A DNA stretch of 64,000 bases from Microbacterium aurantiacum (GTDB lineage Bacteria; Actinomycetota; Actinomycetes; Actinomycetales; Microbacteriaceae). Positions 46,931 to 64,000 of the stretch are shown piece after piece (within the stretch, counting starts at the first letter, position 1; each line of letters opens with the position of its first letter). A program made the translations under genes and the position numbers. The DNA is taken from NCBI RefSeq assembly GCF_002872075.1, contig NZ_PGGU01000029.1, forward strand, positions 71,435 through 135,434, in the 5' to 3' direction. Below the pieces are notes generated by a model that was not told the DNA's origin, made no database searches, and saw nothing but the letters and a program-made list of their open reading frames with translations.

Positions 46931-46963
46931 GCTGCGCTCCTGTGTTGAGAGGAATGTGGATCC

Positions 46964-46989: not shown

Positions 46990-47000
46990 GGGGAACCGGA

Positions 47001-48524: not shown

Positions 48525-48709
48525 CCTTGGTCCCTTCATCGGGAGGCGATACCCCTGCGGATCACCTCTGACGGGAGAAGCTAGCAGCAAAAGCGAGCGA
48601 GCGCTAGGTTTTTGAAGCAAAAAGCTAGCGGAGGCTCGGAATTGGTGTAGAACGGTAGCGAGACGGTTGCACTCGCGCCCGATGGTGGTCGCGAGAGACG
48701 GGGGATACG
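48525..48709. promoter_or_regulatory. Divergent control region with three phased GCTAG boxes
   Basis: GCTAG occurs at 48580, 48603 and 48624 (spacings 23 and 21 bp); the outer two copies are the full palindrome GCTAGC. A-rich tracts lie between them. The array sits between the binding-protein gene and the TetR gene, where a TetR dimer would be expected to bind. Clear -35/-10 pairs are not obvious. Confidence 0.45.
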
Positions 48710-49390
48710 GTGACACTGATGACGAACACGACGAAGAAGAGCCCCCGGGTCGTCCGGGGGGCGCGCGGCGAGTACGCCAAGACCCGCGAACGGCGCAAGG
48801 CCATCCTGGATGCGGCGCTGGAGGTGTTCGCCGAGGGAGGCTATCGTTCGGGGTCTCTCCGGGAGATCGCGCAGCGCGTGGGAATCAGCGAAGCCGGGCT
48901 CCTGCATCACTTCTCCAACAAGGTCGCGCTCCTGGAGGCCGTGCTCGATCATCGCGACGACAGGTCGCGGGAGATGGTCCCGCTCGGAACCGATGACGGT
49001 GCCGCCACCCTGCGCGGCCTCGTGCGGCTCGCGGCCTACAACGCTTCGGTCCCCGGCGTCGTCGAGCTCTATTGCACCCTCTCGGCCGAGGCCACGTCCG
49101 CAGACCATCCTGCCCACGACTACTTCGTGCGCCGCTATGCGTTCACGCGCACGAACGTCGAACTCGCCTTCGCGAACCTCGAGGCGGAGGGCCGTCTGCG
49201 GCCGGGGATGACGCCCTACCGCGGGGCTGTCATCCTCATCGCCATGATGGACGGACTGCAGGTGCAGTGGCTTCTGGACCGATCCGCGGTGGACATGGCG
49301 GAGGAATTGCGGGTGCTGATCTCCGGCATCGTCGACATCGACTGGGACGTGATCGACGAATCGCTCGACGACGAGGCCGTCGGGCCGTGA
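48710..49390 (+). CDS. TetR-family transcriptional regulator
   Basis: 226 residues from GTG 48710. The HTH lies at about 25-70: RRKAILDAALEVFAEGGYRSGSLREIAQRVGISEAGLLHHFSNKVALLEAVL. The C-terminal ligand domain is helical. It is divergent from the Opp/glycosidase operon and overlaps the GH2 gene by 4 nt (GTGA). It therefore probably represses both transcription units until a glycoside or sugar binds. TetR control of a glycan operon is less usual than LacI or ROK control. Confidence 0.93.
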   Translation: MTLMTNTTKKSPRVVRGARGEYAKTRERRKAILDAALEVFAEGGYRSGSLREIAQRVGISEAGLLHHFSNKVALLEAVLDHRDDRSREMVPLGTDDGAATLRGLVRLAAYNASVPGVVELYCTLSAEATSADHPAHDYFVRRYAFTRTNVELAFANLEAEGRLRPGMTPYRGAVILIAMMDGLQVQWLLDRSAVDMAEELRVLISGIVDIDWDVIDESLDDEAVGP

Positions 49391-51804
49391 CGCGCGTCCC
49401 GTTCGGCGACGGCTGGACCGTCGGGGCCAAGCTCGGTGCGTTCGAGGCGCGCGACTCGTCGACCGCGGCGGTGCCCGTGCGAATCCCCCATGACGCGCTT
49501 CGCGACCTGCCGCGCTCGGCCGACAGTGTTCAGGGTGTGCACAGCGGATACATCCCGGGCGGTGTGTTCGAGTACACGAAGCTCTTCGACGTGCCTGCGG
49601 ATTGGCGCGACAAGACCGTGCGCATCGAGTTCGAGGGCGTCTACCGCGACGCGACCGTGTTCATCAACGGCGACTTCGCCGCGCACGAGGCGAACGGATA
49701 TTCCGCCTTCGTCATCGACGCCGATCCCTTCCTGCGCTTCGGCGAGACCAACACGATCGCGGTGGAAGCACGTGTGCACCGCGACAGCCGCTGGTACACC
49801 GGCGGAGGCATCTACCGCCCGGTTCACCTCATCGTCGACGAGCCGGTGCACATCGCTCTCGACGGCACTGTGGCGACGAGTTCCGACATCGACACGGAAC
49901 GGGCGATCGTCGAGATCGCCAGCCGCATCGAGAACCGGACGAGGCACACCGCCACTCGCCGGATCGCCTGGGCCATCGTCGATGACGAGGGCGCCGAAGT
50001 CGCGTCCGGAGCCGCGCCGGTCACGGTCCTTCCCGGCGCGACCGCCGTCGCCCGTATCCGTCTCGCCGTTCGGTCGCCACGACTGTGGGGGCCGGATTCT
50101 CCGCACCTGTACGGGGTGCGCACCGTTCTCGCCGACGCCGAAGGGGTCGATGCCGGTGGGCAGACGACCGTCTTCGGCATCCGCCGCCTGCAGCTCGACC
50201 CGGTACGCGGGCTGCGGATCAACGGTGTCCGCGTCGACCTCAGGGGCGCCTGCATCCATCACGACAACGGCCCACTCGGGGCGGTGTCGACGGCGGATGC
50301 CGAGGAGCGGCGCATCCGCCTGCTCAAAGCCGCCGGCTTCAACGCGATCCGCAGCGCGCACAATCCGGCCAGCCGCGCGCTGCTCGACGCCTGCGACGCG
50401 CACGGCATGATCGTGATGGACGAGCTCTCGGACGTATGGACGAAGTCGAAGACGGCGTTCGACGGCTCGCTCGGATTCGACGAACGCTGGCGACGCGACG
50501 TTGCCGCGCTCGTGCGGAAGGACGCCAATCACCCCAGCGTCGTGCTGTACTCGATCGGCAACGAGATCCTCGAGCTGGCCACCCCGCACGGGGCCACGTG
50601 GAGCAGGCGCATCGCCGAGGAGTTCCGCACGCTCGATCCGCACCGCTTCGTGACGAACGGCATCAACGGGGTCATCGCGAACCTCTCCGCCATCGCCGGC
50701 ACGATGGCGGAGAACGAGGCATCCGATCCGAACACGATGATGGCCGGCATGGGCGAGCAGATGGCGCTCCTGAACGCGTCGTCGCTGGTGACGGATTCGA
50801 CCGAGGAATCGGCGGCCGTTCTCGACGTCGTCGGGTTCAACTACGCCGACTCCCGTTACGATCTCGATGCGGACCTCTTCCCGAACCGGATCATCGTCGG
50901 ATCGGAGACCTTCCCCGATCGCATCGCGTCGCTGTGGGCCGACGTGCGCCGGCTGCCGCACGTGATCGGCGACTTCACCTGGACCGGCTGGGACTACATC
51001 GGAGAGGCCGGCATCGGCCGGGTGGACTACACCGACGTCGACGGCTATCACCCAACCGGCACCTCCGGACCGTTCCCGTACCTTCTGGGCGGATGCGGAG
51101 ACCTCGACATCACCGGTCATCGCCGTCCGGCGTCGTACTACCGCGAGATCGCGTTCGGGCTGCGGGCCGAGCCGGCGATCGCCGTGCACCGGCCGCAGCA
51201 TCATGGACGCCCGACGGCGAAGACGCCCTGGTCCTGGGACGACGTGGTCAGCAGCTGGACCTGGGGCGTGCCCGAGGGCTCTGCGGTGACGGTCGACGTG
51301 TACACGGATGCGGAAGAGATCGAGCTGCTCCTGGACGGCGTCCTGATCGCACGCGCCGCCGTCGGGGCTCCGCGACCGCTGATCGCCCGCTTCGAGACCG
51401 AGTACCGCGCCGGTGCGCTCACCGCCGTCGCCTACGACAGTGGCGCCGAAGTCGCCAGGACCACGCTGCGCACGGCCGGGCAGCCGAGACTCGTCGCTCG
51501 TGCAGAGCGACCCGAGATCACCGGCCGGGACGGGCTCGGCTACGTGGTCGTCACGATCGAAGACGACGCCGGCATCGTCGTCTGCGATATGGATCGTGCG
51601 GTCAGCGTCGAGGTCTCCGGCGGCACGCTCGCCGGGATCGGCTCCGGGAGGACACGCACCGAGGAGAGCTTCGCCGGCCCGCGCTGCACGACGTACGACG
51701 GACGCGTGCTCGCCATCGTGCGGCCCAGCGGGCCGGGCGAGATCCGTGTGACGGCGACGGCCGATGGCTTCGTTCCGGCAGAAGCCGTCATCGTCGCCGG
51801 ATAG
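49387..51804 (+). CDS. GH2 family glycosidase (beta-galactosidase-like)
   Basis: 805 residues from GTG 49387. The sugar-binding jelly roll (about 1-150; FEYTKLFDVPADWRDKTVRIEFEGVYRDATVFING) and the immunoglobulin-like domain precede the TIM barrel with acid/base Glu393 in YSIGNEI and nucleophile Glu507 in VGSETFP. DUF4982-like and GH2 C-terminal beta domains follow (about 610-805). No signal peptide. Related GH2 enzymes remove beta-galactose, beta-glucuronic acid or arabinose from plant glycans. Co-expressed with TetR, it completes the intracellular enzyme set. Confidence 0.93.
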   Translation: MTRVPFGDGWTVGAKLGAFEARDSSTAAVPVRIPHDALRDLPRSADSVQGVHSGYIPGGVFEYTKLFDVPADWRDKTVRIEFEGVYRDATVFINGDFAAHEANGYSAFVIDADPFLRFGETNTIAVEARVHRDSRWYTGGGIYRPVHLIVDEPVHIALDGTVATSSDIDTERAIVEIASRIENRTRHTATRRIAWAIVDDEGAEVASGAAPVTVLPGATAVARIRLAVRSPRLWGPDSPHLYGVRTVLADAEGVDAGGQTTVFGIRRLQLDPVRGLRINGVRVDLRGACIHHDNGPLGAVSTADAEERRIRLLKAAGFNAIRSAHNPASRALLDACDAHGMIVMDELSDVWTKSKTAFDGSLGFDERWRRDVAALVRKDANHPSVVLYSIGNEILELATPHGATWSRRIAEEFRTLDPHRFVTNGINGVIANLSAIAGTMAENEASDPNTMMAGMGEQMALLNASSLVTDSTEESAAVLDVVGFNYADSRYDLDADLFPNRIIVGSETFPDRIASLWADVRRLPHVIGDFTWTGWDYIGEAGIGRVDYTDVDGYHPTGTSGPFPYLLGGCGDLDITGHRRPASYYREIAFGLRAEPAIAVHRPQHHGRPTAKTPWSWDDVVSSWTWGVPEGSAVTVDVYTDAEEIELLLDGVLIARAAVGAPRPLIARFETEYRAGALTAVAYDSGAEVARTTLRTAGQPRLVARAERPEITGRDGLGYVVVTIEDDAGIVVCDMDRAVSVEVSGGTLAGIGSGRTRTEESFAGPRCTTYDGRVLAIVRPSGPGEIRVTATADGFVPAEAVIVAG

Positions 51805-51836: not shown

Positions 51837-53240
51837 TCAGCGCCGCGGGTCGTATCGTGCGGGCGGGTGCGTGGCGGCGACGAGCGCACGCAGCTCATCC
51901 AACGTCGCCGGCGCGGCGCCCAGCGCACGCGCCTGCACGAGCACGTTGCCCAGAGCAGTCGCCTCGACGGGACCCGCCAGCAGAGGAAGCCCGGAGCGAT
52001 CCGCCGTGGCCTGGCAGAGCGGCCGGTTCAGCGATCCGCCGCCGACGAGGTGGATCGCGTCGATGTCGCGGCCCGACAGCCTTCCGGCTGTGCGGATCGC
52101 GTCGGCGAACGCCTCGGCGATGCTCTCGACGATGCTCCGGACGAAGCGGGCTCGAGGCGCCGGGACCGGGCTGCCGGCCGCCTGCAGCAGCGCGGTGATG
52201 CGCGCGGGCATGTCGCCCGGTGCGCTGAGGGTGGAGTCGTTGGCATCGAAGAGAGGGATGTCGCCGGTGACCTCCGATGCCGCGGTCAGGAGCTCGGGCA
52301 GATCGATCGCGGACCCGTCCTCCGCCTCCCACGCCCGTACGCTCTCGCTGAGCAGCCAGAGACCGGTGACGTTGTGCAGGAAGCGGATGCGCCCGCCGAC
52401 GCCGCGTTCATTGGTGAAGTTCGCGTCGCGCGCAGCATCCGACAGCACCGGCTCCGCCAGCTCGACGCCGACGAGTCCCCAGGTGCCGCAGGAGATGTAC
52501 GCCGACTGCGGGGAGGAGAGAGGTGCGGCGACGACCGCGGATGCGGTGTCGTGCGAGCCCACGGCGATGACGGGAAGCGACGCGCCGATCCGAGCGGCGA
52601 CCTCGGGGCGCAGCATTCCGAGCACGGTTCCCTCGTCGACGAGGGTGGGAAGCAGTCGCTCCGGGATGCCCAGGCGCTCGGCGAGCTCGAGATCCCACTC
52701 GCCGGTGCGGACCCCGAGGAGCCCCGTCGTCGAGGCGTTCGTCCGCTCGGCGGCACGGGTTCCGGTGAGCAGGAACGTGATGAGATCCGGGATGAGGAGC
52801 GCGGTGTCGGCGTCGTGCGAACGCCCGTCTGCCCGGTACTGGTACAGCGTGTTGAACGGCAGGAACTGCAGGCCGTTGCGGGCATAGAGCTCGGCGAACG
52901 GCACGGCCCCGTGCACGTCCGCGGCACCCCGCTCGGTGCGCCCGTCGCGGTAGTGGAACGGTTCCGCGAGCAGTTCGCCGTCGCGGAGCAGGCCGTAGTC
53001 GACCGCCCACGAGTCGACGCCGATGCTCTCGATCGCAGGTTCCCGCCGCACCGCTTCGGCGAGACCGTCGAGGACGTGCTCGTACAACGCCGCGAAGTCC
53101 CAGTGCAGGCCGTCGTCGCGCTGCACCGGACCGTTCGGGAACCGTGAGACGAGTTCGAGATCGAGCCGGTCCGCACCCACGCGGCCGATCATGACCCGGC
53201 CGCTCGTGGCGCCGAGGTCCACCGCCGCGACGGCGCGCAT
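51837..53240 (-). CDS. rhaB: Rhamnulokinase
   Basis: 467 residues, FGGY sugar-kinase fold. AAVDLGATSGRVMIG (phosphate loop), DSWAVDYGLLRDG, RTERGAADVHG, YISCGTWGLVGVEL and VGGGSLNRPLCQATADRSG are characteristic of RhaB. It phosphorylates L-rhamnulose to rhamnulose-1-phosphate with ATP. ATG 53240 gives the conserved N terminus. It is the last gene of the rhamnose operon, separated from the aldolase by 121 nt containing a large inverted repeat, and is convergent with GH2. Confidence 0.95.
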   Translation of the reverse strand: MRAVAAVDLGATSGRVMIGRVGADRLDLELVSRFPNGPVQRDDGLHWDFAALYEHVLDGLAEAVRREPAIESIGVDSWAVDYGLLRDGELLAEPFHYRDGRTERGAADVHGAVPFAELYARNGLQFLPFNTLYQYRADGRSHDADTALLIPDLITFLLTGTRAAERTNASTTGLLGVRTGEWDLELAERLGIPERLLPTLVDEGTVLGMLRPEVAARIGASLPVIAVGSHDTASAVVAAPLSSPQSAYISCGTWGLVGVELAEPVLSDAARDANFTNERGVGGRIRFLHNVTGLWLLSESVRAWEAEDGSAIDLPELLTAASEVTGDIPLFDANDSTLSAPGDMPARITALLQAAGSPVPAPRARFVRSIVESIAEAFADAIRTAGRLSGRDIDAIHLVGGGSLNRPLCQATADRSGLPLLAGPVEATALGNVLVQARALGAAPATLDELRALVAATHPPARYDPRR

Positions 53241-53263
53241 CGTCACGAGCGTCCCGCCGCCGT

Positions 53264-53341
53264 CGAGTGCACGGCATCGCCGCGAGTGCACGGCCTGTCG
53301 GCGTCGACGACCCGTGCACTCGGCGACATGCCGTGCACTCG
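53264..53341. repeat. Four-copy GTGCAC inverted repeat between rhaB and the aldolase gene
   Basis: Two 30-nt arms (53264-53293 and 53312-53341) are complementary except for a short central part, with an 18-nt loop. Each arm contains two CGAGTGCACGG units; GTGCAC starts at 53267, 53286, 53314 and 53333 (spacings 19, 28, 19). It lies within the operon gap, so it will be transcribed as a strong hairpin. It may be a dispersed intergenic palindrome, a transcript-processing or attenuation signal, or a binding site. Confidence 0.8.
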
Positions 53342-53361
53342 GCGGTCCGCCGGTGCGCGGG

Positions 53362-55413
53362 TCATCGCAGGAACGCGGCGGCGACGCCGGAGTCGACCGG
53401 GATGTGCAGGCCGGTGGTGCGGCTCAGCTCGGGGCCGGTCAGCACGTACACGGCATCCGCGACGTTCTCCGGCACGACCTCGCGCTTGAGGATGGTGCGG
53501 TTCGCGTAGAACTGGCCCAGGTCCTCTTCGGCGACGCCGTAGGTGGCGGCGCGGTTGGCGCCCCAGCCGGAGGCGAAGATCCCGGATCCGCGCACCACCC
53601 CGTCGGGGTTGATGCCGTTGACGCGGATGCCGAACTCGCCCAGTTCCACAGCCAGCAGCCGCACCTGGTGGGCCTGGTCGGCCTTGGTCGCGGAGTAGGC
53701 GATGTTGTTCGGGCCGGCGAAGACGGAGTTCTTCGACGAGATGTAGATGATGTCACCGCCGAGCTTCTGGTCGATGAGCACCCGGGCGGCCGCCTTCGAC
53801 ACCAGGAACGAGCCCTTGGCCATCACATCGTGCTGCAGGTCCCAGTCCTTCTCGGTGGTCTCCAGCAGCGGCTTCGAGAGCGAGAGCCCGGCGTTGTTGA
53901 CGATGAGGTCGACGCCGCCGAAGGCGAGCACCGCCTCATCGAGCGCCGCCTGCACGGCACCGGCGTCGGCGACGTTCGCGGCGACGCCGATGGCGACATC
54001 GGTGTTGCCGAGCTCGGCGGCTGCGGCCTTCGCCTTCTCGAGATCGAGGTCGGCGATGACGACGCACGCCCCCTCGGCGGCCAGGCGAACGGCGATGGCC
54101 TTGCCGATGCCGGACGCCGCGCCGGTCACGAAGGCGATGCGTCCCTGGTGGGACTTCGGCTTCGGCATCCGCTGCAGCTTCGCCTCCTCCAGCGCCCAGT
54201 ACTCGATGCGGAACTTCTCGGCGTCGGAGATGGGGGAGTACGTCGACAGCGCCTCGGCACCGCGCATCACGTTGATCGCGTTGACGTAGAACTCGCCCGC
54301 GACCCGGGCGGTCTGCTTGTTCGCGCCATAGGAGAACATGCCGACCCCCGGAACGAGCACGATGAGCGGGTCGGCGCCGCGGATCGCCGGGGACTCGGCC
54401 GTGGCATGCGCGTCGTAGTAGGCCTGGTAGTCGGCGCGGTACTCGGCGTGCAGCTCGTGCAGTCGGGCGATCTGCTCGTCGACGGATGCCGTGGTGGGCA
54501 CGTCGAGGATGAGCGGCTTCACCTTGGTGCGCAGGAAGTGATCGGGGCAGCTGGTGCCGAGGGCGGCGAGCTCGGGGGCGCGCTCCGATGCGAGGAAGTC
54601 GAGGACGACGTCGGAATCGGTGAAGTGGCCGATCATCGGCCGGTCGGTCGAGGCGATGCCGCGGATCGTGCCGGCGAGGGAGGCGGCGCGCTCGCGGCGC
54701 TCGGCCTCGGGGAGCGCCTCGAAGCCGACGCGGGTAGCGCCGAACGGGTCGGCCGCGCCGTGCTCGGCGATGTAGGCCGCAGCCGTGTCGATGATCCACA
54801 GCGAATTCGCCTCGGCCTCCTCGGACGTGTCGCCCCACGCGGTGATGCCGTGGCCGCCGAGGATGCAGCCCACGGCCTGCGGATTCTTCGCCTTGATCGC
54901 CGCGATGTCGAGACCGAGCTGGAAGCCGGGTCGCCGCCAGGGCACCCAGACGACCTTCTGTCCACCGGCGCCGTCGCCGAAGATCTCGGCCGTGAGCTCC
55001 TCGCCGTCCGCGGCGGTCGCGATCGCGATGCCGGAGTCCGGGTGCAGGTGGTCGACGTGCGCGGCATCGACGAGCCCGTGCATGGCCGTGTCGATGGAGG
55101 GGGCGGCGCCGCCCTTGCCGTGGAGGCAGTAGTCGAACGCGGCGACCATCTCGTCCTCGCGGTCCAGGCCGGGGTAGACGTCGACGAGGGCGCGCATGCG
55201 GTCGAGGCGCAGCACCGCGAGCCCCTGCTCGGTCAGCGTGCCGAGGTCGCCGCCGGACCCCTTGACCCACAGCAGCTCGACGGGCTGCCCGGTGACCGGG
55301 TCGGTGTCGGTGCCCTTGGCAGAGGTGTTGCCGCCGGCGTAGTTCGTGTTCTTCGGATCGGCGCCGAGGCGGTTGCTCCGCGAGATCAGCGCTGCGGCTG
55401 TGTGGTTGGTCAT
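53362..55413 (-). CDS. rhaE: Bifunctional rhamnulose-1-phosphate aldolase / lactaldehyde dehydrogenase
   Basis: 683 residues. The N-terminal class II aldolase domain (about 1-400) has NTNYAGGNTSAKG, DHLHPDSGIAIA (metal-binding His) and GGHGITAWGDT. The C-terminal SDR domain (about 425-683) has TGAASGIGKAIAVRLA, NNAGLS, the catalytic Ser in IIYISSKNSV and YSATKADQAHQ. Proteins of this kind (RhaEW, YuxG) cleave rhamnulose-1-phosphate to DHAP and L-lactaldehyde and oxidise the aldehyde to L-lactate. It starts 14 nt after the esterase stop. Confidence 0.95.
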   Translation of the reverse strand: MTNHTAAALISRSNRLGADPKNTNYAGGNTSAKGTDTDPVTGQPVELLWVKGSGGDLGTLTEQGLAVLRLDRMRALVDVYPGLDREDEMVAAFDYCLHGKGGAAPSIDTAMHGLVDAAHVDHLHPDSGIAIATAADGEELTAEIFGDGAGGQKVVWVPWRRPGFQLGLDIAAIKAKNPQAVGCILGGHGITAWGDTSEEAEANSLWIIDTAAAYIAEHGAADPFGATRVGFEALPEAERRERAASLAGTIRGIASTDRPMIGHFTDSDVVLDFLASERAPELAALGTSCPDHFLRTKVKPLILDVPTTASVDEQIARLHELHAEYRADYQAYYDAHATAESPAIRGADPLIVLVPGVGMFSYGANKQTARVAGEFYVNAINVMRGAEALSTYSPISDAEKFRIEYWALEEAKLQRMPKPKSHQGRIAFVTGAASGIGKAIAVRLAAEGACVVIADLDLEKAKAAAAELGNTDVAIGVAANVADAGAVQAALDEAVLAFGGVDLIVNNAGLSLSKPLLETTEKDWDLQHDVMAKGSFLVSKAAARVLIDQKLGGDIIYISSKNSVFAGPNNIAYSATKADQAHQVRLLAVELGEFGIRVNGINPDGVVRGSGIFASGWGANRAATYGVAEEDLGQFYANRTILKREVVPENVADAVYVLTGPELSRTTGLHIPVDSGVAAAFLR

Positions 55414-55427
55414 CGGTGATCCTCGGG

Positions 55428-56255
55428 TCAGGGGGTGAGAGTCTTCAGGCGGGCAGCGATGCGCGCGGTCGTGCGTGTCGCCGCCTCTTCGTCGGGCCGG
55501 TTGAGGTGGCCGTGGTGCGTGCCGGGCTCGGTGACGACCTCGATGTCACGGCCGGCGGAAGCGAGGGTCGCCGCGAAGTGCTCGCCCGACACCCGGAGTT
55601 CGTCGACCTCGCCGTTGATCATGAGCGTCGGCGGGAAGTCCGTCAGGTCGGACGCGGTCGCAAGTCCGGGGATGGCGGTGAGAGGTGCCCCGTCGACCGG
55701 ACCGCCGAGATAGTTCTCGTACATCCACAGCACGGCGGCGGGGCCGAAGCGATCCGCCTCCGGATCAGCATCGAGGGCCGCGCGCAGCGCCGCGTCGGGA
55801 GCGGGCTGCACCGCGAGCAGGGTCGGATAGGCGAGCACGACGAGCGCGGGCGCATCCGCGCTGCCGGACAAGCGCAGGGCGGCACCGGCGGCGAGGTTGC
55901 CGCCGGCGCTCGTGCCGCCGATCGCGAGGGCGTCGGCGCGAATACCGAGGTCGTGTGCGTGCGCGTGCGTCCAGCGGAAAGCGGCGACCATGTCGTCTGA
56001 GCCGGCCGGGAAGTGTTCGCCGGGACGTTCGGCGACGTCGTCGAGACCGGCCGGAACAGGCGCGAGTCGGTAGTCGACCGACACGACCGTCGTTCCGCGC
56101 GCTGCGAGCTCGCGCGCGACCCGGTCGGATTCGGGCATGTCGAGGTCGCCGAAGGCGAAGCCGCCTCCGTGCGCCCAGACGAGTCCGGCGCCCCCGGCAT
56201 GTGCGGCCGGGTACACACGGACGAGTCCGTCCGCCGCCTCGTACGGCTCGCTCAC
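55428..56255 (-). CDS. Alpha/beta hydrolase (HSL-type esterase) in the rhamnose operon
   Basis: 275 residues from GTG 56255, which follows GGAG by 8 nt. The oxyanion motif HGGGFAFGD, nucleophile GTSAGGN, the Asp in GEVDELR and His in GTHHGHLN form the HSL-family set. No signal peptide. Within a rhamnose operon the likely role is removal of acetyl or other acyl groups from rhamnose or imported rhamnogalacturonan oligosaccharides. It lies between rhaI (32 nt gap) and the aldolase. Specificity is inferred from context only. Confidence 0.88.
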   Translation of the reverse strand: MSEPYEAADGLVRVYPAAHAGGAGLVWAHGGGFAFGDLDMPESDRVARELAARGTTVVSVDYRLAPVPAGLDDVAERPGEHFPAGSDDMVAAFRWTHAHAHDLGIRADALAIGGTSAGGNLAAGAALRLSGSADAPALVVLAYPTLLAVQPAPDAALRAALDADPEADRFGPAAVLWMYENYLGGPVDGAPLTAIPGLATASDLTDFPPTLMINGEVDELRVSGEHFAATLASAGRDIEVVTEPGTHHGHLNRPDEEAATRTTARIAARLKTLTP

Positions 56256-56287
56256 CGCATCCGCTCCACTCCTGCGAAGACCCTCGC

Positions 56288-57451
56288 TCACGCGCCCCAG
56301 CCCGCCTGCACGCCGCCGACGCGGTCGACCGCGATCGTCTGCTGGTAGCCGGATGCGGCGTACGCCGCCATCGGGTCGCCGGCGAGCCCGCGGGCTTCGC
56401 GCCACTCGGCCAGTGCCGGGCGCACGTCGGTGTAGAACGCGTCCATGAACACGGCGTTGGCCGCGAGCACATCTCCCGACTTCTGCGCCGCGGCGAGGGC
56501 ATCGCGATCGACGAGCAGCGCGCGCGCCGTCATCTCCTGCACGTTGAGCACCGAGCGGATCTGGCCGGGGATCTTGTCCTCGACGTTGTGGCACTGGTCG
56601 AGCATGAAGGCCACGTCGGGGTTGTTGAGGCCGTCGCCGCGGATGACCTCGAAGAGGATGCGGAACAGCTGGAACGGATCGGCGGCGCCCACGATCAGGT
56701 CGTCATCGGCGTAGAAGCGCGAGTTGAAGTCGAACGAGCCCAGCTTTCCGAGGCGCAGCAGCTGCATCACGATGAACTCGATGTTCGTGCCGGGTGCGTG
56801 GTGGCCGGTGTCAAGACACACCATGGCCCGGTCTCCGAGGGCGCTCACCTGGGCGTAGGACGTGCCCCAGTCCGGAACGTCGGTGTGGTAGAACGCAGGC
56901 TCGAAGAACTTGTACTCCAGCACCAGGCGCTGGTCGCCGGTGAGGCGAGCGTAGATCTCCTGCAGCGACTCCTGCAGCCGGTCCTGGCGGCCGCGGAGGT
57001 CGGCCTGCCCCGGGTAGTTCGAGCCCTCGGCGAGCCAGATCTTCAGGTCTCGCGAGCCCGTGGCATCCATCACGTCGATGCAGGCCAGGTGATGATCGAT
57101 CGCCTTCCGCCGCACGCCCGCATCTTCGTGCGTGAGCGCGCCGAACTTGTAGTCGTCGTCCTGGAACGTGTTGGAGTTGATCGTGCCGAGAGAGACACCG
57201 AGGTCTTCGGCATGCGCACGCAGGTCGGCGAAATCGCACATGTCCCACGGGATGTGCAGCGCCACGCTCGGGGCGAGTGCGGTGTACCTGTTGACCTGCG
57301 CGGCATCCGCGATCTTCTCGAACGGATCGCGCGGGGTGCCGGGAGTGCCGAACACCTTGAAGCGGGTGCCGGAATTCCCGAACGCCCAGGACGGGAGCTC
57401 GATCGCCTGCTGCTCGAGAGCTGCCAGGGTGTCGGGGGAGAGGATGCTCAT
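56288..57451 (-). CDS. rhaI: L-rhamnose isomerase
   Basis: 387 residues, the rhaI-type isomerase found in actinobacteria and Pseudomonas rather than the E. coli RhaA type. It converts L-rhamnose to L-rhamnulose. Barrel segments with metal ligands are visible: LVLEYKFFEPAFYHTD (Glu and His), MVCLDTGHHAPGTN (Asp, His) and FDFNSRFYADDDL. The motif WDMCDFADL also fits. ATG 57451 overlaps the mutarotase stop by 4 nt. Confidence 0.96.
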   Translation of the reverse strand: MSILSPDTLAALEQQAIELPSWAFGNSGTRFKVFGTPGTPRDPFEKIADAAQVNRYTALAPSVALHIPWDMCDFADLRAHAEDLGVSLGTINSNTFQDDDYKFGALTHEDAGVRRKAIDHHLACIDVMDATGSRDLKIWLAEGSNYPGQADLRGRQDRLQESLQEIYARLTGDQRLVLEYKFFEPAFYHTDVPDWGTSYAQVSALGDRAMVCLDTGHHAPGTNIEFIVMQLLRLGKLGSFDFNSRFYADDDLIVGAADPFQLFRILFEVIRGDGLNNPDVAFMLDQCHNVEDKIPGQIRSVLNVQEMTARALLVDRDALAAAQKSGDVLAANAVFMDAFYTDVRPALAEWREARGLAGDPMAAYAASGYQQTIAVDRVGGVQAGWGA

Positions 57452-57828
57452 GGGGCACTGCCTTCGTCGTCGATGTCGGATGCGGTGAAGCCGCCGGCGG
57501 CGGCGAGTTGGTCTTCGAGGTGGAAGACCTCGGAGAGCGGAGTGGCGGCCTGATCGGGACGGCCGTCGAGATCGACGAAGAAGCGGGCCATCTCGGCCTC
57601 CCACCGCGTGGCGACCTCGGAGCCGGCGAGGTACGCGCGGGCGGCCGCGTCGTCATCGGTCTCGTAGTAGCCGATGAGACGGCCCCCTTCGGCGAGGAAG
57701 AGCGAGTAGTTGCGGCGGCCGGCCGCCGCGATCTCGGCGAGCATCTCGGGCCGGACCGGGGAATGGCGAGCGACGTACTCCTCGAGCAACTCAGGACGGA
57801 CCTGGAGCTGGAAGACCACGCGGATCAT
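57448..57828 (-). CDS. rhaM: L-rhamnose mutarotase
   Basis: 126 residues from ATG 57828, with GAGG 8 nt upstream; a GTG at 57837 is less likely. It interconverts the alpha and beta anomers of L-rhamnose. RVVFQLQVRPELLEEYVARHSPV (catalytic His) and NYSLFLAEGGRLIGYYETDD match the family (former DUF718). A C-terminal tail of about 25 residues extends beyond the usual end. It is the first gene of the rhamnose operon, directly behind the promoter and LacI-type operator. Confidence 0.95.
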   Translation of the reverse strand: MIRVVFQLQVRPELLEEYVARHSPVRPEMLAEIAAAGRRNYSLFLAEGGRLIGYYETDDDAAARAYLAGSEVATRWEAEMARFFVDLDGRPDQAATPLSEVFHLEDQLAAAGGFTASDIDDEGSAP

Positions 57829-57843
57829 TGGATGCACCTCATT

Positions 57844-57855
57844 TGAATCGTTTCA
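57844..57855. promoter_or_regulatory. LacI-family operator of the rhamnose operon
   Basis: TGAATCGTTTCA is a perfect 6+6 dyad with central CG when read as TGAAwCGwTTCA, the classic LacI/GalR-type operator. It begins about 2 nt downstream of the predicted transcription start (near 57857) and 16 nt before the rhaM ATG. This is an ideal roadblock position. No LacI gene is present in the window. Confidence 0.75.
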
Positions 57856-57863
57856 CTACGTTG

Positions 57864-57893
57864 AGATTAGGTCGCGCAGCGCCCGCGTGTCAA
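57864..57893 (-). promoter_or_regulatory. Sigma-70-type promoter of the rhamnose operon
   Basis: On the minus strand TTGACA (57893-57888) and TAATCT (57869-57864) are separated by 18 nt. The -35 box overlaps the stop codon of the PL26 gene (57890-57892). This is the best canonical promoter in the window. The predicted start is close to 57857. Confidence 0.8.
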
Positions 57894-60538
57894 GCGCGGT
57901 CAAGGCGATCCCCGATGAGCGCGAGGTTCTGTATCGCGGCCAGTCCGTATTGCGCGGCATCGTTGGTGGATACGGTCGGCACCTCGTCGACCGGATGCAG
58001 CGACTGGGGCGGGGTGATCCGGATGAGACGGAGATCGCGGCGATGCACCAGCCACTCGCCCGTCCCGTCGAAGGCGCGCCAGGCGTCGTCAGCCAGCTTC
58101 GCATCCTGCGTCGCCGCTGCCGCATACGCGGCCAGCCGGCTGTGCGCCTGCTCCAGGTGGATGCCGGTGAGCGGCCTGCCCACCGCGCGCTGCTGCTCGT
58201 CCGGGGTGGCGAGGTACAGGCGGCAGTACTGGAGCCAGGCGTCGCGGAACCCGGGCATGTCGACGAGCGTGATCAGCTCACTGCAGATCTCGGCAAGCCC
58301 GAACACAGCACTGAGATGCGACACGGCGATCTGATCCCGTCGGCTGTCCAGGCGACCCGTGTCGATGTCGTACAGCGCCTCGCCCGTGAGGAATCCGTTC
58401 GGCAGCGCTGCGATGTCGGCCATGGTGCCGAGCAGCCGGTCGCGGGAGCGCTCGTTGCCCGTGCGCTCCCAGTCGCACAGCCACGTCGCGGCGAGCGATC
58501 CCCAGTCCGTCCCCAACCCGATGGCGAGGGCGTTGCGGGCCGGACGGTAGGTGGCCGCGTCCGGGCGGACCTTGCGCGTGGGGTCGGTGTCGAGGAACCG
58601 CGTATCGCTGTCCCGCAACTCGGTCAGCAGGTCACCCACACGCTCGTCGGCGGTGAGGTAGTGGAAGAAGCGCCGGTATGCGGGCGTGCTGATACGCAGC
58701 TGCTTCGCGCTGCAGCCCCAGTGCTGGACGTTGTGCCGCGACCCGAGCCCCTTCCATCGCCCGAGGTGGTACACGTCGACCTCACCGGTGTGGCGGGTCA
58801 TCGCCTCGGCGAACCGGAAGATGTCGGCTCGGCCGCTGCGGAGATAGGAGTACCAGAGCCAGAGGTCGGGGGACAGCTCGCTGTTGTCCCATGCATATCC
58901 TCCGACGTCGTACCGCCACACATGGCGGTCGCTGTCATAGGCGTGCATCACGTCGCCGTAGTTCCAGAACCCGTACCAGCTGCGCTGGTCGACCTGATCG
59001 AGATAGAAGCGGGTCAGGAAGTCCAGGCTGCCCTCGATCTCGGCGCGCGCCGGCGTGGACCGGTCGATCAGGTCCCAATCGCCGAACACGCCGACGGAGC
59101 GGAGGTACTGCGGTGTCGGCTGCAGCAGCGCCGGTCGCTGCACGTCATGCACGCCCGAGGAGATCTCGGTCGGAGACGGCGTCGTGGCGTAGGCGAACAG
59201 GGTCAGCTCGTGGGTCCGGGCGATCCCACGCGCATCTCCGTATCCGGGCTCGTAGTCCTCGTAGGTGATCTCGAGCGCTTCGAGCTGTGCGGCGTAGTCG
59301 TCCTGGCCGAGGCCATCGTGGTAGAACCGCATGTCCATCGGCGGCGCCTGAGGCGAGTAGAGCCAGGCGGTCAGTTGCGCCCGGTCCGACGCGGCATCCC
59401 GGATGTCCAGCTGTGCCGGATGCGACTCCCAGAACGATCTCATCCCGATGCCGAGGCCGCCGTCGGGCGAAGACAGCGAGACGAATCCCTCAGACCGCGC
59501 CCCGGCGGCCGCATCGATCCAGCTGTGTCCCGGCTTGGTTCTCTTGCGGATCGTGAAGCCGTCGGCGCTGAGCTGCGCGAGCGAGAAGTCCGCCCAGGAC
59601 GGGATGAGCGCCAGGCGGCCCGAGACCGCCGGATCCCAGTCCTCGAGGGGCGGTGTGGCATGTCCCGCGATCTGTGCGGCGCGGACCTCAGCGCCGGGGT
59701 CGCGGCGCAGACCGGTGATGCCGCGCACGGCTTCGGCGAAGAAGCCGTCGTCGGCACCGCTGAAGCGCACATGCCGGTCGTGGAGTGCGGAGGACTGCGG
59801 AGCGTCGATCCGCAGGCCGAGGCCGGCGAGGAAATCCTGTGACGCATCCCCGTCCCAGATGAAGGAGTGCACCATCCGGACAGAGCCCGAGCCCGCCATC
59901 GCCACGAAGCGCACGGCGAACGGGAGCCAGGTGCGGTCTCCATCCTCGGCGCGGTGAACGCCCTCGACCCGGATGACCGCGCGAACGGGGCCGCTCTGCT
60001 CGACGTGTACGGTGTGCACCTCGGAAGTGTAGGAATGGCGCTCGGATCGGCCGTCCTCTTCGACGATCTCGTGCTGGAGGAGACTGATGAGCCGGGCCCG
60101 TTCTGCGACGATGCGTCCGTCGCGGAGCAGACGATGGAAGAGCACCGGCGAGACCTCGCCATCTCGCAGGGCGGGGAACTCCAGACGCATCGGCCCCGTG
60201 TCGACCGCGATCACTTCGTTCTCGACGTCGACGCGAACAGCCGCATCACCGGGACGTGGTGCGCGTGCCTCCGCCCCCACGACGACGGCGTACTCTCCGG
60301 GATCGGACCCGCGGGCGCCGAGCGCCGCCCCGACCCATTTGAGGGAGCCGTCGGGCCAGGTGGCAAGAGGCCAGAACTGCGCGGGCTCATTTGAATCCGG
60401 AAGGCGGCGCAGGCGCAGCGAGGAGATGTCTCGTACGCGCCCCCGCGTGAGCGGGAAACCCCAGGTGGTCCCGTTCGGCAGCGTGCCGGGAGTCTCGTCA
60501 TCCAGCCATCGCAGGGGAACCAGATCATCACTGTTCAC
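57890..60538 (-). CDS. PL26-type exo-rhamnogalacturonan lyase
   Basis: 882 residues from GTG 60538, with no signal peptide. VPLRWLDDETPGTLPNGTTWGFPLTRGRV at the N terminus, LATWPDGSLKWVGAALG, VRMVHSFIWDGDASQDFLAGLGLRID and the (alpha/alpha)-barrel region SWYGFWNYGDVMHAYD, VYHLGRWKGLGSRHNVQHWGC match the exo-rhamnogalacturonan lyase family first described from Penicillium (PcRGLX, three Pfam segments). These enzymes release unsaturated galacturonosyl-rhamnose from the chain end by beta-elimination. It overlaps DUF1961 by 4 nt. A cytoplasmic place implies action on imported oligosaccharides. Confidence 0.9.
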   Translation of the reverse strand: MNSDDLVPLRWLDDETPGTLPNGTTWGFPLTRGRVRDISSLRLRRLPDSNEPAQFWPLATWPDGSLKWVGAALGARGSDPGEYAVVVGAEARAPRPGDAAVRVDVENEVIAVDTGPMRLEFPALRDGEVSPVLFHRLLRDGRIVAERARLISLLQHEIVEEDGRSERHSYTSEVHTVHVEQSGPVRAVIRVEGVHRAEDGDRTWLPFAVRFVAMAGSGSVRMVHSFIWDGDASQDFLAGLGLRIDAPQSSALHDRHVRFSGADDGFFAEAVRGITGLRRDPGAEVRAAQIAGHATPPLEDWDPAVSGRLALIPSWADFSLAQLSADGFTIRKRTKPGHSWIDAAAGARSEGFVSLSSPDGGLGIGMRSFWESHPAQLDIRDAASDRAQLTAWLYSPQAPPMDMRFYHDGLGQDDYAAQLEALEITYEDYEPGYGDARGIARTHELTLFAYATTPSPTEISSGVHDVQRPALLQPTPQYLRSVGVFGDWDLIDRSTPARAEIEGSLDFLTRFYLDQVDQRSWYGFWNYGDVMHAYDSDRHVWRYDVGGYAWDNSELSPDLWLWYSYLRSGRADIFRFAEAMTRHTGEVDVYHLGRWKGLGSRHNVQHWGCSAKQLRISTPAYRRFFHYLTADERVGDLLTELRDSDTRFLDTDPTRKVRPDAATYRPARNALAIGLGTDWGSLAATWLCDWERTGNERSRDRLLGTMADIAALPNGFLTGEALYDIDTGRLDSRRDQIAVSHLSAVFGLAEICSELITLVDMPGFRDAWLQYCRLYLATPDEQQRAVGRPLTGIHLEQAHSRLAAYAAAATQDAKLADDAWRAFDGTGEWLVHRRDLRLIRITPPQSLHPVDEVPTVSTNDAAQYGLAAIQNLALIGDRLDRA

Positions 60539-61185
60539 AGGGCGTGCACCTCCAGGTTGCGGTAACAGGCGACCAGCGGCGACATCTGCCGGAATCCGAT
60601 GCGTCCGGATCCGACCAGCGGGCCGGTCGAGCGGTCGTCCTCCCACGTGAACAGGAGGAGGTCGTCGATCGCGAATTCCACGCGGCTCTCGTCCTTGACG
60701 ACGCTGATGCGGTAGAAAGCCTCGCGGGCGTCGACCACCGGCGGCAGAGGATCCGCCCCCTGTGCGACGAGATGGAAGCCGGGTGATTTACGCAGGTTGC
60801 ACGTGTGGAACGCGCGCTCCTCCTCCCACCGCCGACGGAAGTACGAGACGTGGAGGGTGCGGATGTCACCGGAGTGGTACTGCGGATACGCGCCGCTGCG
60901 GGTCGCCAGGCTGGGATCGAAGATGTCCCCGCCCTCGTGCGAGGTCGAACCGAAGAAGAGCATCGCGAGTCCCGGCTCCGCACGCGGTGAGAACTCCCAG
61001 GTGATGCGGATGCGGTCGGGGAAGGTCTCCGGGCACCACATCGTCCAGTGGTCGTCGAAGCCCCCCGCCGAGGACAGGATGAGCCCGTCACTCGCGGTCG
61101 TCGCATCCACGGGGCCCTCCTTCACCCATCCGTCGAGGTCGTCGGGAGTGCGCAGCGGGTTGCTGTAGATCAGCATCCGGGTCAT
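60535..61185 (-). CDS. DUF1961 (YesU-like) concanavalin-type protein
   Basis: 216 residues, beta-rich, without a signal peptide. MLIYSNPLRTPDDLDGWVKEGP, MWCPETFPDRIRITWEFSPRAEPGLAMLFFG and YHSGDIRTLHVSYFRRRWEEERAFHTCNLRKSPGFHLVAQGADPLPP match DUF1961, which includes Bacillus YesU from the rhamnogalacturonan cluster. The fold is concanavalin-A-like, suggesting glycan binding or hydrolysis, but no activity is established. It overlaps the permease (ATGA) and PL26 (GTGA) genes. Confidence 0.88.
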   Translation of the reverse strand: MTRMLIYSNPLRTPDDLDGWVKEGPVDATTASDGLILSSAGGFDDHWTMWCPETFPDRIRITWEFSPRAEPGLAMLFFGSTSHEGGDIFDPSLATRSGAYPQYHSGDIRTLHVSYFRRRWEEERAFHTCNLRKSPGFHLVAQGADPLPPVVDAREAFYRISVVKDESRVEFAIDDLLLFTWEDDRSTGPLVGSGRIGFRQMSPLVACYRNLEVHAL

Positions 61186-62063
61186 CCCTTCACAGAGCCG
61201 ATGAGCATTCCCTTGGCGAAATGCTTCTGCAGGAAGGGGTAGAACAGCACGATCGGCAGAGTCGCCACGATGATCACGGCGAACTTGATGCCCTGCGCCG
61301 GGGGCAGTTCGGTGGCGCTCTGGTCCACGACCGAAAGGTCGGATGCCGCCGTCACCTGGCGCAGGAACATCTGCAGCGTCCACATCGAGTTGTCGTTGAG
61401 GTACAGCAGGGGCGACATGAAGTCGTTCCAGATTCCGACGGCGTAGAACAGTGCGAACGTCGCGAGCACCGGTTTCGAGAGCGGGAGGATGATGCTCCAG
61501 AGCGTCTGAAGTTCGTTCGCGCCGTCGATGGTCGCGGACTCCTCGAGCTCGTTGGGCAGCTGCTGGAAGAAGTTCTTGATGATGATGAGGCTGAACGGGT
61601 TGATCGCGGCGGGCAGGATCAGCGCCCAGTAGTTGTCCAGCAGCCCGAGGTCCTTGACGACCAGGAAGGTCGGGATCATGCCACCGGAGAACACCATCGT
61701 GAACACGACGAGCGTGATGATCACACGGCCGCCCGGGAGCTGCGCCTTGCTGAGCGGATACGCCATCGTGGCGGTCAGGAAGAGCTGCACCGCGGTGCCG
61801 ACGGCGGTGACCAGGACGGTGGTGACGAGTGCGCGCACGAACGAGGGGCTCGTGAAGATCGCTTCGTAGGCGTCGAGGGAGAACGTCTCGGGCCAGAGGA
61901 AGAACGATCGGCTCGCGAGTTCCGCCTCGGTGGCGAACGAGCCTGCGAGCACGAAGACGAACGGGATGAGCGCGATGACGCCGACGATGACCATCAGCGC
62001 GACATTGAAGACGTCGAAGACGCGTCCGCTCGGGGTGTTGAATCGGTCCTTCGGTCGAGTCAT
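61182..62063 (-). CDS. CUT1 sugar ABC permease (YesQ/LplC-like)
   Basis: 293 residues with six transmembrane helices. The EAA loop reads NELEESATIDGANELQTLWSIILPLSKPVLATF, and the C-terminal FYPFLQKHFAKGMLIGSVKG is the hallmark of YesQ/LplC/YtcP permeases. ATG 62063 shares one base with the preceding stop (TGATG). Together with the next gene it forms the membrane channel of an importer for rhamnogalacturonan oligosaccharides. The energising ATPase is not encoded here; such systems often use a shared MsmX-type protein. Confidence 0.95.
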   Translation of the reverse strand: MTRPKDRFNTPSGRVFDVFNVALMVIVGVIALIPFVFVLAGSFATEAELASRSFFLWPETFSLDAYEAIFTSPSFVRALVTTVLVTAVGTAVQLFLTATMAYPLSKAQLPGGRVIITLVVFTMVFSGGMIPTFLVVKDLGLLDNYWALILPAAINPFSLIIIKNFFQQLPNELEESATIDGANELQTLWSIILPLSKPVLATFALFYAVGIWNDFMSPLLYLNDNSMWTLQMFLRQVTAASDLSVVDQSATELPPAQGIKFAVIIVATLPIVLFYPFLQKHFAKGMLIGSVKG

Positions 62064-63043
62064 CAGAAGATCCCCGTCTGGTTGGTGCGTCGCGCGAGCC
62101 AGTTGGCCCCGAAGATCAGAACGACTCCGACGACGGCTTTGAACAAGCCGACCGCGGTCGCGTAGCTGTACGAGCCCTGCGTGATGCCCATGAAGTAGAC
62201 GTACGTGTCGAAGACATCGGCGACCGAACGGTTCAGCGCGTTGGTCATGAGATAGATCTGCTCGAAACCGGTGTTGAGCACCTGGCCCATCTGCAGCACG
62301 AGCATGACGATGATGGTCGGCATGATCGACGGGAGCGTGATGTGCCACACGCGCTGGAACCGTCCGGCGCCGTCGATGATGGCGGCTTCGTACTGCTCCT
62401 GGTCGACGGTGGCGAGAGCCGCGAGGAAGATGATGGTTCCCCAGCCGGTGTTCTTCCAGATGTCCTGCAGCACGATGATCGGGCGGAACCAGGAGGGGTC
62501 GGCCAGGAAGTCGACGTCTGTGCCCAGCACCCCGTTGATGAGCTGGAAGAGCGGCCCGACGTCGAGGGCGAAGAGCAGATAGGTCAGCGAGGCGACGACC
62601 GTCCAGGACAGGAAGTGCGGCACATAGAGCAGGGTCTGCACCGTGCGCTTGAGGACGATCACGCGCAGTTCGTTCAGCAGCAGCGCCGCGACGATCGTCA
62701 ACGGGAAGGCGATCACGAGGCTGAGCAGCGCGAGGATCAGCGTGTTCGTGAGCAGGCGGGGGAAGTCCGGACTGGAGAAGAAGTCCTCGAAATGACTCGT
62801 GCCGACCCAGGGGCTGTCGTTCACCCCGAGGAACGGGATGTAGTCCTTGAACGCGATGAGGGCGCCGTACATGGGCCAGTAACGGAAGACCAGGAAGTAG
62901 GCGACTCCCGGGACCAGCAGCAGGTACAGCCACTTGTATCTGCGGAAGTGCGCTGCGCTGGATCGTCGTCGTTGCTTCTTCGGCAGGACGAGGGTTTCGG
63001 TGACGGTTGCCGCCTGCAGCGTCGAGGTATCAGGGATTGCCAT
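62063..63043 (-). CDS. CUT1 sugar ABC permease (YesP/LplB-like)
   Basis: 326 residues. A cytoplasmic N terminus rich in basic residues is followed by six helices, with FRYWPMYGALIAFKDYIP and the EAA loop QYEAAIIDGAGRFQRVWHITLPSI. These and the C-terminal GLFKAVVGVVLIFGANWLARRTNQTGIF are typical of YesP/LplB permeases. The ATG lies 56 nt after the binding-protein stop, behind a strong hairpin. Confidence 0.95.
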   Translation of the reverse strand: MAIPDTSTLQAATVTETLVLPKKQRRRSSAAHFRRYKWLYLLLVPGVAYFLVFRYWPMYGALIAFKDYIPFLGVNDSPWVGTSHFEDFFSSPDFPRLLTNTLILALLSLVIAFPLTIVAALLLNELRVIVLKRTVQTLLYVPHFLSWTVVASLTYLLFALDVGPLFQLINGVLGTDVDFLADPSWFRPIIVLQDIWKNTGWGTIIFLAALATVDQEQYEAAIIDGAGRFQRVWHITLPSIMPTIIVMLVLQMGQVLNTGFEQIYLMTNALNRSVADVFDTYVYFMGITQGSYSYATAVGLFKAVVGVVLIFGANWLARRTNQTGIF

Positions 63044-63063
63044 GATCTTCTCTTCTCGAATAC

Positions 63064-63094
63064 GTCGGGCCGGCAGTGACCCTGCCGGCCCGAC
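63064..63094 (-). terminator. Intercistronic hairpin between binding protein and permease genes
   Basis: Arms 63064-63076 and 63082-63094 form a perfect 13-bp GC-rich stem with a 5-nt loop, beginning 5 nt after the binding-protein stop. There is no U-tract. It matches the hairpin in the Opp operon (46964-46989) in position and probable role. Confidence 0.65.
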
Positions 63095-63099
63095 CGGAC

Positions 63100-64000
63100 T
63101 CAGGAGCCGGCTTCGGCCAGTTCGTTGATCTCCTTGATCACGTCGTCACCGCCGCTCGAGCGCCAGAGCTCGATGGCCTTCTCGACGTCACCGAGGGTGA
63201 TCTGGCCCGCGAGGAACTGGATCCGGGCATCCGCCACGATCGTGTCGAGCTGCGCGCCCTTCGAGATGTACGTCTCGGACACGAACGGAGCGGACGGGTC
63301 GAACTCCGCATGCTCGAGGTCGGCCGCCTCGATCTCCTTGCGCTTGTCGTACATCTGCTGCTCGTACTCGGACGGCTGCTTGGGGAGGTAGCCCTTGAAC
63401 CCGTTGACGTTCATGCCCAGCTGCGAGTAGCTCAGCACGGCGTCTTTCAGCTCCTGCGGGACGCCGTCGACGGCGACAGCGAGATCGCCGTCGAGCGTGT
63501 AGGTGGTGCCTTCGATGCCGTTGTTGAGGATCGGCCCGGCCTCATCCGAGTTCAACTTGTCGAGCACCTCCAGGACACCGCGGAGTTCCGCCTCCGTGCG
63601 CACCGACGACTTCGGAATCGCGAGGAATCCGCTGTAGCCGGCGGTGGGCAGCGCGTGAAGCTCACCGTCCGGCCCTTCGAGGTTCCCCGTGATGTCGACG
63701 TACTCGCTGAATGCGTCGGGCTGCGACTGCTTCAGCAGGGAGATCAGCTGGCCGGCGCGCGAGTGCACGTCGAGGATGATGCCGCCCTTGCCATTGAGGA
63801 AGGGCTCGTTCCAGGTCGCGGAGTCGAAGGTCGCGAAGTCCCGGTTCACGAGTCCCTCATCGACGAGCCGGCGCTCGAACTCGACGGCTTCCAGCCATTC
63901 ATCGGTGGTGAAGTTCGGCACGAGTTCGCCATCGCGTTCCGTCCAGCGGTTGCCTGCGCCGTACCAGGTCTCGATGGCATCCCATGGGCTGTTGGTGCCG
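63100..64000 (-). CDS. Extracellular sugar-binding protein of a YesO/LplA-type ABC importer, N-terminal part missing
   Basis: The frame runs off the right edge; 299 C-terminal residues are visible and a GTG at 63921 is internal. WYGAGNRWTERDGELVP, LNSDEAGPILNNGIEGTTYTLDGD and QMYDKRKEIEAADLEHAEFDPSAPFVSETYISKG are typical of LplA/YtcQ-type binding proteins that pair with YesP/YesQ permeases. The protein captures the oligosaccharide outside the cell. It is the first known gene of the rhamnogalacturonan operon here; the promoter and signal peptide lie beyond the window. Confidence 0.93.
   Translation of the reverse strand, partial: GTNSPWDAIETWYGAGNRWTERDGELVPNFTTDEWLEAVEFERRLVDEGLVNRDFATFDSATWNEPFLNGKGGIILDVHSRAGQLISLLKQSQPDAFSEYVDITGNLEGPDGELHALPTAGYSGFLAIPKSSVRTEAELRGVLEVLDKLNSDEAGPILNNGIEGTTYTLDGDLAVAVDGVPQELKDAVLSYSQLGMNVNGFKGYLPKQPSEYEQQMYDKRKEIEAADLEHAEFDPSAPFVSETYISKGAQLDTIVADARIQFLAGQITLGDVEKAIELWRSSGGDDVIKEINELAEAGS

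Follow-up and report, generated by a model that had tools for sequence, protein, structure and literature searches.

The last genes of a 64,000-nucleotide stretch of Microbacterium aurantiacum DNA (GCF_002872075.1, contig NZ_PGGU01000029.1, positions 71,435-135,434 of the forward strand; called the window throughout) encode a carbohydrate importer, a DUF1961 protein of the YesU family and a polysaccharide lyase of family 26 (PL26), followed directly by the genes of L-rhamnose catabolism. The gene content makes it highly probable that the locus serves a pathway for oligosaccharides of rhamnogalacturonan-I (RG-I) in which lysis takes place in the cytosol. The product expected of such lysis is unsaturated galacturonosyl-rhamnose (dGalA-Rha), and since the genome holds no GH105 or GH88 hydrolase, we propose that it is DUF1961 that splits this disaccharide. 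To the explanation as a whole, with this role of DUF1961 included, we give a probability of about 0.45.

In the proposed pathway, the locus feeds on RG-I fragments, and acidic oligosaccharides would enter by an importer of the Lpl/AlgQ type and would probably be deacetylated by an SGNH esterase. The cytosolic PL26 lyase would cut them to dGalA-Rha, and DUF1961 would split this into rhamnose and an unsaturated uronate that opens to 5-dehydro-4-deoxyglucuronate. Rhamnose would pass to RhaM, RhaI, RhaB and RhaEW. A neighbouring dehydrogenase may oxidise the uronate at C1 to 5-dehydro-4-deoxyglucarate, which a KdgD-like enzyme and an aldehyde dehydrogenase would convert to 2-oxoglutarate without KduI. 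The enzymatic steps given to DUF1961 are all inferred, as are what becomes of the uronate and the identity of the substrate. The interest of the locus lies in a GH105-free variant of the RG-I pathway and in a testable role for DUF1961, a family published as a possible adhesion lectin, to which the proposal gives a concrete and cheap test. If it is true, DUF1961 would be a new glycosidase family, the use of RG-I by actinobacteria lacking GH105 would be explained, and PL26 would be seen to occupy two cellular locations, each with its own partner genes. If our reading of DUF1961 is wrong, genomes without GH105 still need an unrecognised enzyme.

PL26, DUF1961 and the missing GH105

A search of the host genome (35 contigs totalling 3.83 Mb, with completeness rated at 100%) with the GH88/GH105 model PF07470 gave no match at E values up to 0.001; Bacillus subtilis, as the control, was positive in the searches for GH105, PL26, DUF1961 and PL11. 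The first-pass annotation of this DNA had stated that GH105 is not in the window, which holds and extends to the whole genome. It had also taken GH105 to be required and just out of view; that part was incomplete, as a replacement by DUF1961 had not been considered, and a GH105 gene just outside the window can be rejected. The sequence to the right, where it had suggested looking for GH105, PL11 and LacI genes, does contain a LacI gene, with GH105 and PL11 absent both there and from the rest of the genome. PL11 was present in 8 of the 13 genomes searched.

The lyase itself is a complete PL26 protein. All three Pfam domains of the Penicillium chrysogenum enzyme PcRGLX (PF19501, PF21345 and PF21346) are over cut-off, the highest score being 615 bits and the other two 467 and 70 bits, and the match to PcRGLX (5xq3) reaches 800 bits across residues 8-879, so that the two proteins share a family over nearly their full length. 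Unlike PcRGLX, the window protein is bacterial, lacks a signal peptide and is encoded in an import operon with DUF1961. Its N-terminus, VNSDDLVPLRWLDDE, was inspected by eye and agrees with the earlier claim that the lyase has no signal peptide. The one difference spotted between 5xqo and 5xq3 in the printed alignments is a Tyr-to-Phe change, and the Tyr, which we take from this substitution to be the probable catalytic residue, is kept in the window protein. It could be argued that PL26 of the cytosolic kind is a hydrolase that gives saturated galacturonate and rhamnose, so that GH105 is unneeded. Hydrolases built on lyase folds are known (GH145), and the enolase-superfamily, KdgD-like and dehydrogenase neighbours described below would also suit saturated galacturonate. 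Against this stand the near full-length similarity to PcRGLX, the conservation of the Tyr in 86/86 rows of our PL26 alignment, and the finding that, at 90% on both sides, the cytosolic and exported clades are told apart by a single alignment position, and we regard such a hydrolase as very improbable.

The PL26 tree of these 86 rows, a quick IQ-TREE run without a mixture model, separates a cytosolic clade (48 rows, SH-aLRT 100) from a clade exported by the twin-arginine translocation (Tat) route, made up of 37 rows with a Tat motif and L073. Tat motifs were called by a simple pattern and not by a signal-peptide predictor; L073 is cut at its N-terminus and has no assigned state, and L072, made cytosolic by the hydrophobicity threshold of the script, was moved by hand to the Tat state, its motif being visible. 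DUF1961 follows this division closely. It is found in the genomes of 47 of the 48 cytosolic rows, 39 of which (by our count) have no PF07470 match over cut-off, whereas among the 37 Tat rows only 6 come from genomes with its canonical form. In four of these cases the genome also has a cytosolic PL26 (L064 with L096, L078 with L058, L077 with L139, and L089 in tandem). In Nonomuraea and Micromonospora species where only Tat-type PL26 was seen (L063; L049 and L052), DUF1961 is absent.

DUF1961 also stays with the importer and the rhamnose genes. Among 49 distinct loci with canonical DUF1961 (50 minus L141, which repeats L096), importer genes lie within 6 kb in 46, PL26 within 6 kb in 34, and at least two rha genes within 10 kb in 13. 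In the Arthrobacter group, 10 of the 12 stretches (L125-L128, L130-L135) have an importer-DUF1961 operon that adjoins LacI-rhaM-rhaI-rhaEW, mostly with rhaB, and PL26 lies elsewhere in the genome, away from DUF1961; the other two, L129 and L136, have the importer and DUF1961 and no rha genes across 19 kb. The DUF1961 loci of G306 and G315 are not among these stretches. In Occultella (L137), DUF1961 is followed by rhaB-rhaEW-rhaI. Besides transport and PL26, the clusters that recur in the neighbourhood table are DUF624, DUF1961, an SGNH esterase and a LacI gene. Coupling to cytosolic PL26 and this stay between importer and rhamnose genes make DUF1961 the best candidate for the release of rhamnose, and they are, together with the lack of any other recurrent neighbourhood enzyme, the strongest support for the proposal. 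A literature search, in which bioRxiv and most subscription journals were not covered, returned no mention of PcRGLX and nothing joining unsaturated galacturonosyl, rhamnose and Arthrobacter.

The same association is seen in the host family, Microbacteriaceae, where PL26 occurs in 7 of 299 genomes and DUF1961 in the same seven. Of the 299 genomes, 25 have a PF07470 match over cut-off, none of them among the seven, although one of the seven, G106, has a match below it. The seven belong to four genera, in three of which a sampled congener lacks both genes (G258 and G296 in g1, G227 in g58, G072 in g73). A wider census took the best 80 loci of at least 572 PL26 relatives, from 78 genomes by our count, with G164 taken as the genome of L023. 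PF07470 was over the Pfam cut-off in 34/78 (14/50 plus 20/28) and reached at least 100 bits, a threshold of our own choice, in 24/78; DUF1961 was found in 47/78 (37/50 plus 10/28), two of them divergent (in the L074 genome, at 81 bits, and at L099). For comparison on the tree, the window genome and five relatives were added to give 84 genomes, whose DUF1961 and GH105 states were entered by hand; L078 and L096, whose contigs share assembly prefixes with those of L058 and L064 and which were therefore counted as further loci of these two genomes, stood outside these searches and counts. Canonical DUF1961 alone is present in 46 of the 84 genomes and GH105 of at least 100 bits alone in 19.

Several observations weigh against the proposal. 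Five of the 84 genomes hold both families and 14 hold neither. The anticorrelation of GH105 and DUF1961 is in the right direction and not significant on the tree, where the independent pairs number 0 with and 2-3 against (p 0.25-0.5), because there are too few changes; likewise, the split into cytosolic and Tat-exported PL26 is a single state change on the gene tree. L034 is a cytosolic row without DUF1961, and the genomes of L070 and L075 combine canonical DUF1961 with Tat-type PL26, no cytosolic copy being seen. B. subtilis and Paenibacillus carry both DUF1961 and a GH105-type domain. This speaks against DUF1961 as a mere stand-in for GH105, and a one-for-one replacement was rejected on this ground and on the tree test. 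We consider the weakest points to be that catalysis is deduced from gene context, that GH105 is kept in some lineages, and that the gene tree offers so few changes.

A rival explanation keeps the pathway but gives the cleavage of dGalA-Rha to a hydrolase from a different family, encoded elsewhere in the genome; DUF1961 would then serve the pathway in some other way, for instance by opening or isomerising the freed uronate or by making a different cut. Glycosidase families were searched in part, and GH78 gave four matches in the host genome (at least one in 13/13 genomes searched). Moreover, 9 of the 14 genomes with neither DUF1961 nor strong GH105 have a gene of a DUF2264 cluster (one representative of which was checked against Pfam) beside PL26, which indicates that other solutions exist. 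On the other hand, no further soluble enzyme accompanies the importer in the way that DUF1961 does, and we judge this alternative somewhat unlikely. The DUF2264-cluster gene is perhaps a third partner enzyme of PL26. It lies beside Tat-exported PL26 at L049 (7742-9595, PF10022 370 bits) and, with clustering as the basis of the assignment, at ten further loci (L050-L052, L061, L063, L064, L067, L072, L085 and L087).

Fold and pocket of DUF1961

The window protein matches PF09224 with 331 bits against a cut-off of 25. Its AlphaFold2 model (pLDDT 94.2) is nearest to YesU of B. subtilis (1oq1, released in 2003), with Z 35.0 and an rmsd of 1.2 over 214 residues at 52% identity. After YesU, the closest folds are those of L-type lectins, with Z of at most 17.6, and of BT3469 (Z 16.8); GH16-type glucanases also appear in the Foldseek list. 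According to the accessible parts of the YesU study (PMC6120924), YesU is a lectin that binds fucosylated glycans with sub-micromolar affinity in surface plasmon resonance, no signal peptide was found in it, and Lewis x was docked on ten residues. In an alignment of 33 canonical relatives, all but one of the positions in this docked pocket are invariant, nine in number and with a His, two Arg and a Glu among them; the tenth, Tyr121 of YesU, is Trp in every one of the 33. The pocket positions average 95% identity, compared with 68% overall, and only 1 in 20,000 random sets of positions is as high. L-fucose and L-rhamnose are both 6-deoxy-hexoses, so that a ligand containing rhamnose is, by analogy, a fair guess for DUF1961.

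YesU is thus close to the window protein in sequence, fold and conserved pocket, and was published as a lectin, whereas we propose an enzyme. The galectin- or L-lectin-like fold and the measured glycan binding would suit a non-catalytic cytosolic protein that binds the oligosaccharide and assists PL26 or senses the substrate. Such a role would leave genomes without GH105 without a known rhamnose-releasing step, and it is at odds with the invariance of the pocket and with the finding that in Occultella and in the Arthrobacter group DUF1961 stands beside the rhamnose genes and apart from PL26. We hold it to be unlikely. Our broader proposal is that DUF1961/YesU is the first member of a glycosidase family not described before, built on a jelly-roll fold like that of lectins, which frees L-rhamnose from dGalA-Rha in the cytosol of many actinobacteria with PL26 and without GH105, and possibly of some haloarchaea, while the uronate may bypass KduI by direct oxidation at C1; this generalisation is tentative and well short of an even chance. 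A divergent DUF1961 at L099 (8880-9533), in a genome bearing GH105, is without the five pocket residues Tyr100, His104, Arg117, Trp120 and Glu123, and perhaps has another function.

Like the window genome, B. subtilis holds PL26 and DUF1961, as the search controls showed, and we take YetA to be its PL26 protein. In its RG-I region (yesLMNOPQRS, rhgT-yesUVWXYZ, yetA-lplABCD), YesU and a DUF624 gene are paired with an acetylesterase, as far as the accessible text of PMC6120924 tells. B. subtilis differs from the window genome in having PL11 and the GH105 proteins YesR and YteR; YesR is described in the available part of PMC7596534 as the cytosolic GH105 hydrolase of the unsaturated RG disaccharide. 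The published ulvan route, in which an oligosaccharide dehydratase acts with GH105 (PMC8511951, available sections), likewise deals with uronyl-rhamnose units by an enzyme outside the classical families; there GH105 still cleaves the unsaturated residue, whereas the window genome has no GH105.

Gene order, importer and fate of the uronate

The named genes of the locus (Table 1) run from 51837 to 64629, all on the minus strand, the gene of the solute-binding protein extending 629 bases beyond the window end. Their downstream order is solute-binding lipoprotein, two permeases, DUF1961, PL26, rhaM, rhaI, esterase, rhaEW and rhaB. The profile matches agree with the first-pass annotation in placing importer, DUF1961 and PL26 directly upstream of the rhamnose genes. 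For rhaB, rhamnulokinase is the best NCBIfam match, its 382 bits falling below the model cut-off of 528. The DUF1961 gene overlaps both of its neighbours, the permease and PL26, by four bases, the GTG start of PL26 overlapping the DUF1961 stop, and the gap between PL26 and rhaM is 52 bases. In view of this tight packing, what had been described as adjacent operons may be a single operon.

Table 1. Genes of the locus and of its right flank. Positions follow window numbering; those right of the window are the L001 position plus 61565.
Gene or product	Position	Strand	Matches
rhaB, rhamnulokinase-like FGGY kinase, start uncertain	51837-53291	-	PF02782, PF00370; TIGR02627 382 bits, below cut-off
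rhaEW, bifunctional rhamnulose-1-phosphate aldolase/dehydrogenase	53362-55413	-	NF006188 1326 bits, over cut-off
Alpha/beta hydrolase, esterase-like (Abhydrolase_3)	55428-56255	-	PF07859 138 bits
rhaI, L-rhamnose isomerase	56288-57451	-	TIGR02635 619 bits, over cut-off
rhaM, L-rhamnose mutarotase	57448-57837	-	PF05336 87 bits
PL26 exo-rhamnogalacturonan lyase, GTG start, no signal peptide	57890-60538	-	PF21346, PF21345, PF19501; 800 bits to 5xq3
DUF1961 (YesU family), proposed splitter of dGalA-Rha	60535-61185	-	PF09224 331 bits; YesU 1oq1 nearest
Second ABC permease	61182-62063	-	PF00528 56 bits
First ABC permease	62063-63043	-	PF00528 71 bits
Solute-binding lipoprotein, AlgQ-like	63100-64629 (past window end 64000)	-	PF01547 72 bits; AlgQ1 62 bits
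DUF624	64712-65338	-	PF04854
SGNH esterase	65451-66125	-	PF13472
Aldehyde dehydrogenase	66122-67573	-	PF00171
Enolase-superfamily dehydratase	67570-68658	-	PF13378
KdgD-like protein	68655-69554	-	PF00701
Short-chain dehydrogenase/reductase (SDR)	69565-70500	-	PF01370
Gfo/Idh dehydrogenase	70497-71840	-	PF01408, PF02894
LacI	71959-73074	-	PF00356
Gfo/Idh-DUF6807 fusion	74147-76078	-	PF01408, PF14100
GH35-like gene	76200-78062	-	named by eye

The importer had been called YesOPQ-like, and this name does not hold. The binding protein matches AlgQ1, AlgQ2 and related long binding proteins with 50-70 bits, the AlgQ-type entries lying at 50-62 bits (AlgQ1 62 bits). The structure of YesO has been solved (PMC7596534, available part), and no YesO entry is listed among the solved-structure matches at E values up to 0.01, so that the binding protein is not YesO-like and a YesOPQ-like importer is ruled out. 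The accessible part of PMC2885750 lists yetA beside lplABCD in B. subtilis, which by analogy suggests an importer of the Lpl type here.

By their profile matches, the genes right of the window include those of a hexarate-type pathway. The KdgD-like protein is over the NF002958 cut-off and matches the keto-deoxy-galactarate dehydratase 4ur7 with 171 bits, and the nearest relatives of the enolase-superfamily dehydratase are a putative racemase, 3,6-anhydro-galactonate cycloisomerase and talarate/galactarate dehydratase. Oxidation of 5-dehydro-4-deoxyglucuronate at C1 may provide a shortcut to 5-dehydro-4-deoxyglucarate, the substrate of KdgD, as the names of the compounds suggest. The match of the SDR to uronate dehydrogenase is weak (41 bits, not the top match) and counts against this step, and the literature search, with the same coverage as above, found nothing joining uronate dehydrogenase with 4-deoxy-L-threo-5-hexosulose. 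KduI itself was rejected for this genome, where the sole match to its family (PF04962) is IolB, over the TIGR04378 cut-off.

The first Gfo/Idh gene (70497-71840) has inositol dehydrogenase relatives and, among its solved ones, a glucuronide-3-dehydrogenase. A redox glycosidase role for it was set aside as a general answer to the missing step, since its cluster was found at only one other locus, L070. The DUF624-importer operon has a LacI-type palindrome around AAGCGCTT upstream of it, at 65393, and there is another near 76135, our stretch of 78,566 bases holding three AAGCGCTT in all; GGAAAnCGnTT-type sites precede the DUF624 gene at 7 of 34 loci, our own included.

Plasmid-borne loci and other observations

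On plasmids, DUF1961 was found in seven records, four of which also carry PL26 (Nonomuraea, Paenibacillus, Pseudoalteromonas and Halomontanus). In the Paenibacillus plasmid PL26 stands directly before DUF1961, with a GH88/105-domain gene downstream. The Halomontanus rarus plasmid (L142, 2317-36669) carries a haloarchaeal pectin island with PL22-type lyases, a rhamnogalacturonan lyase, GH78 and a distant PL26 annotated as hypothetical; the cupin gene that DUF1961 overlaps there is KdgF-sized. In the Halocatena marina plasmid (L144, 12700-16720), DUF1961 is near a GH88 gene and sulfatases, and the record has no PL26 match. The substrate in this setting may be a sulfated polymer of uronyl-rhamnose, ulvan for example. 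Of the papers covered by the literature search, one, a fungal effector study, names DUF1961.

Tandem PL26 pairs occur in Kribbella, Hamadaea and Thermoactinospora (L088 10118-15261, L089 7290-12592 and L098 10007-15223, respectively); in the Hamadaea pair one PL26 is cytosolic and the other has a Tat motif. Elsewhere in the window there is a GH78 alpha-rhamnosidase domain at 37018-38067. To the left of the rhamnose genes, 42002-51804 holds a GH2 protein and, as judged by eye, a probable TetR-like regulator and genes that resemble a peptide-type ABC importer set, and three consecutive tRNA genes lie on the minus strand at 6069-6384.

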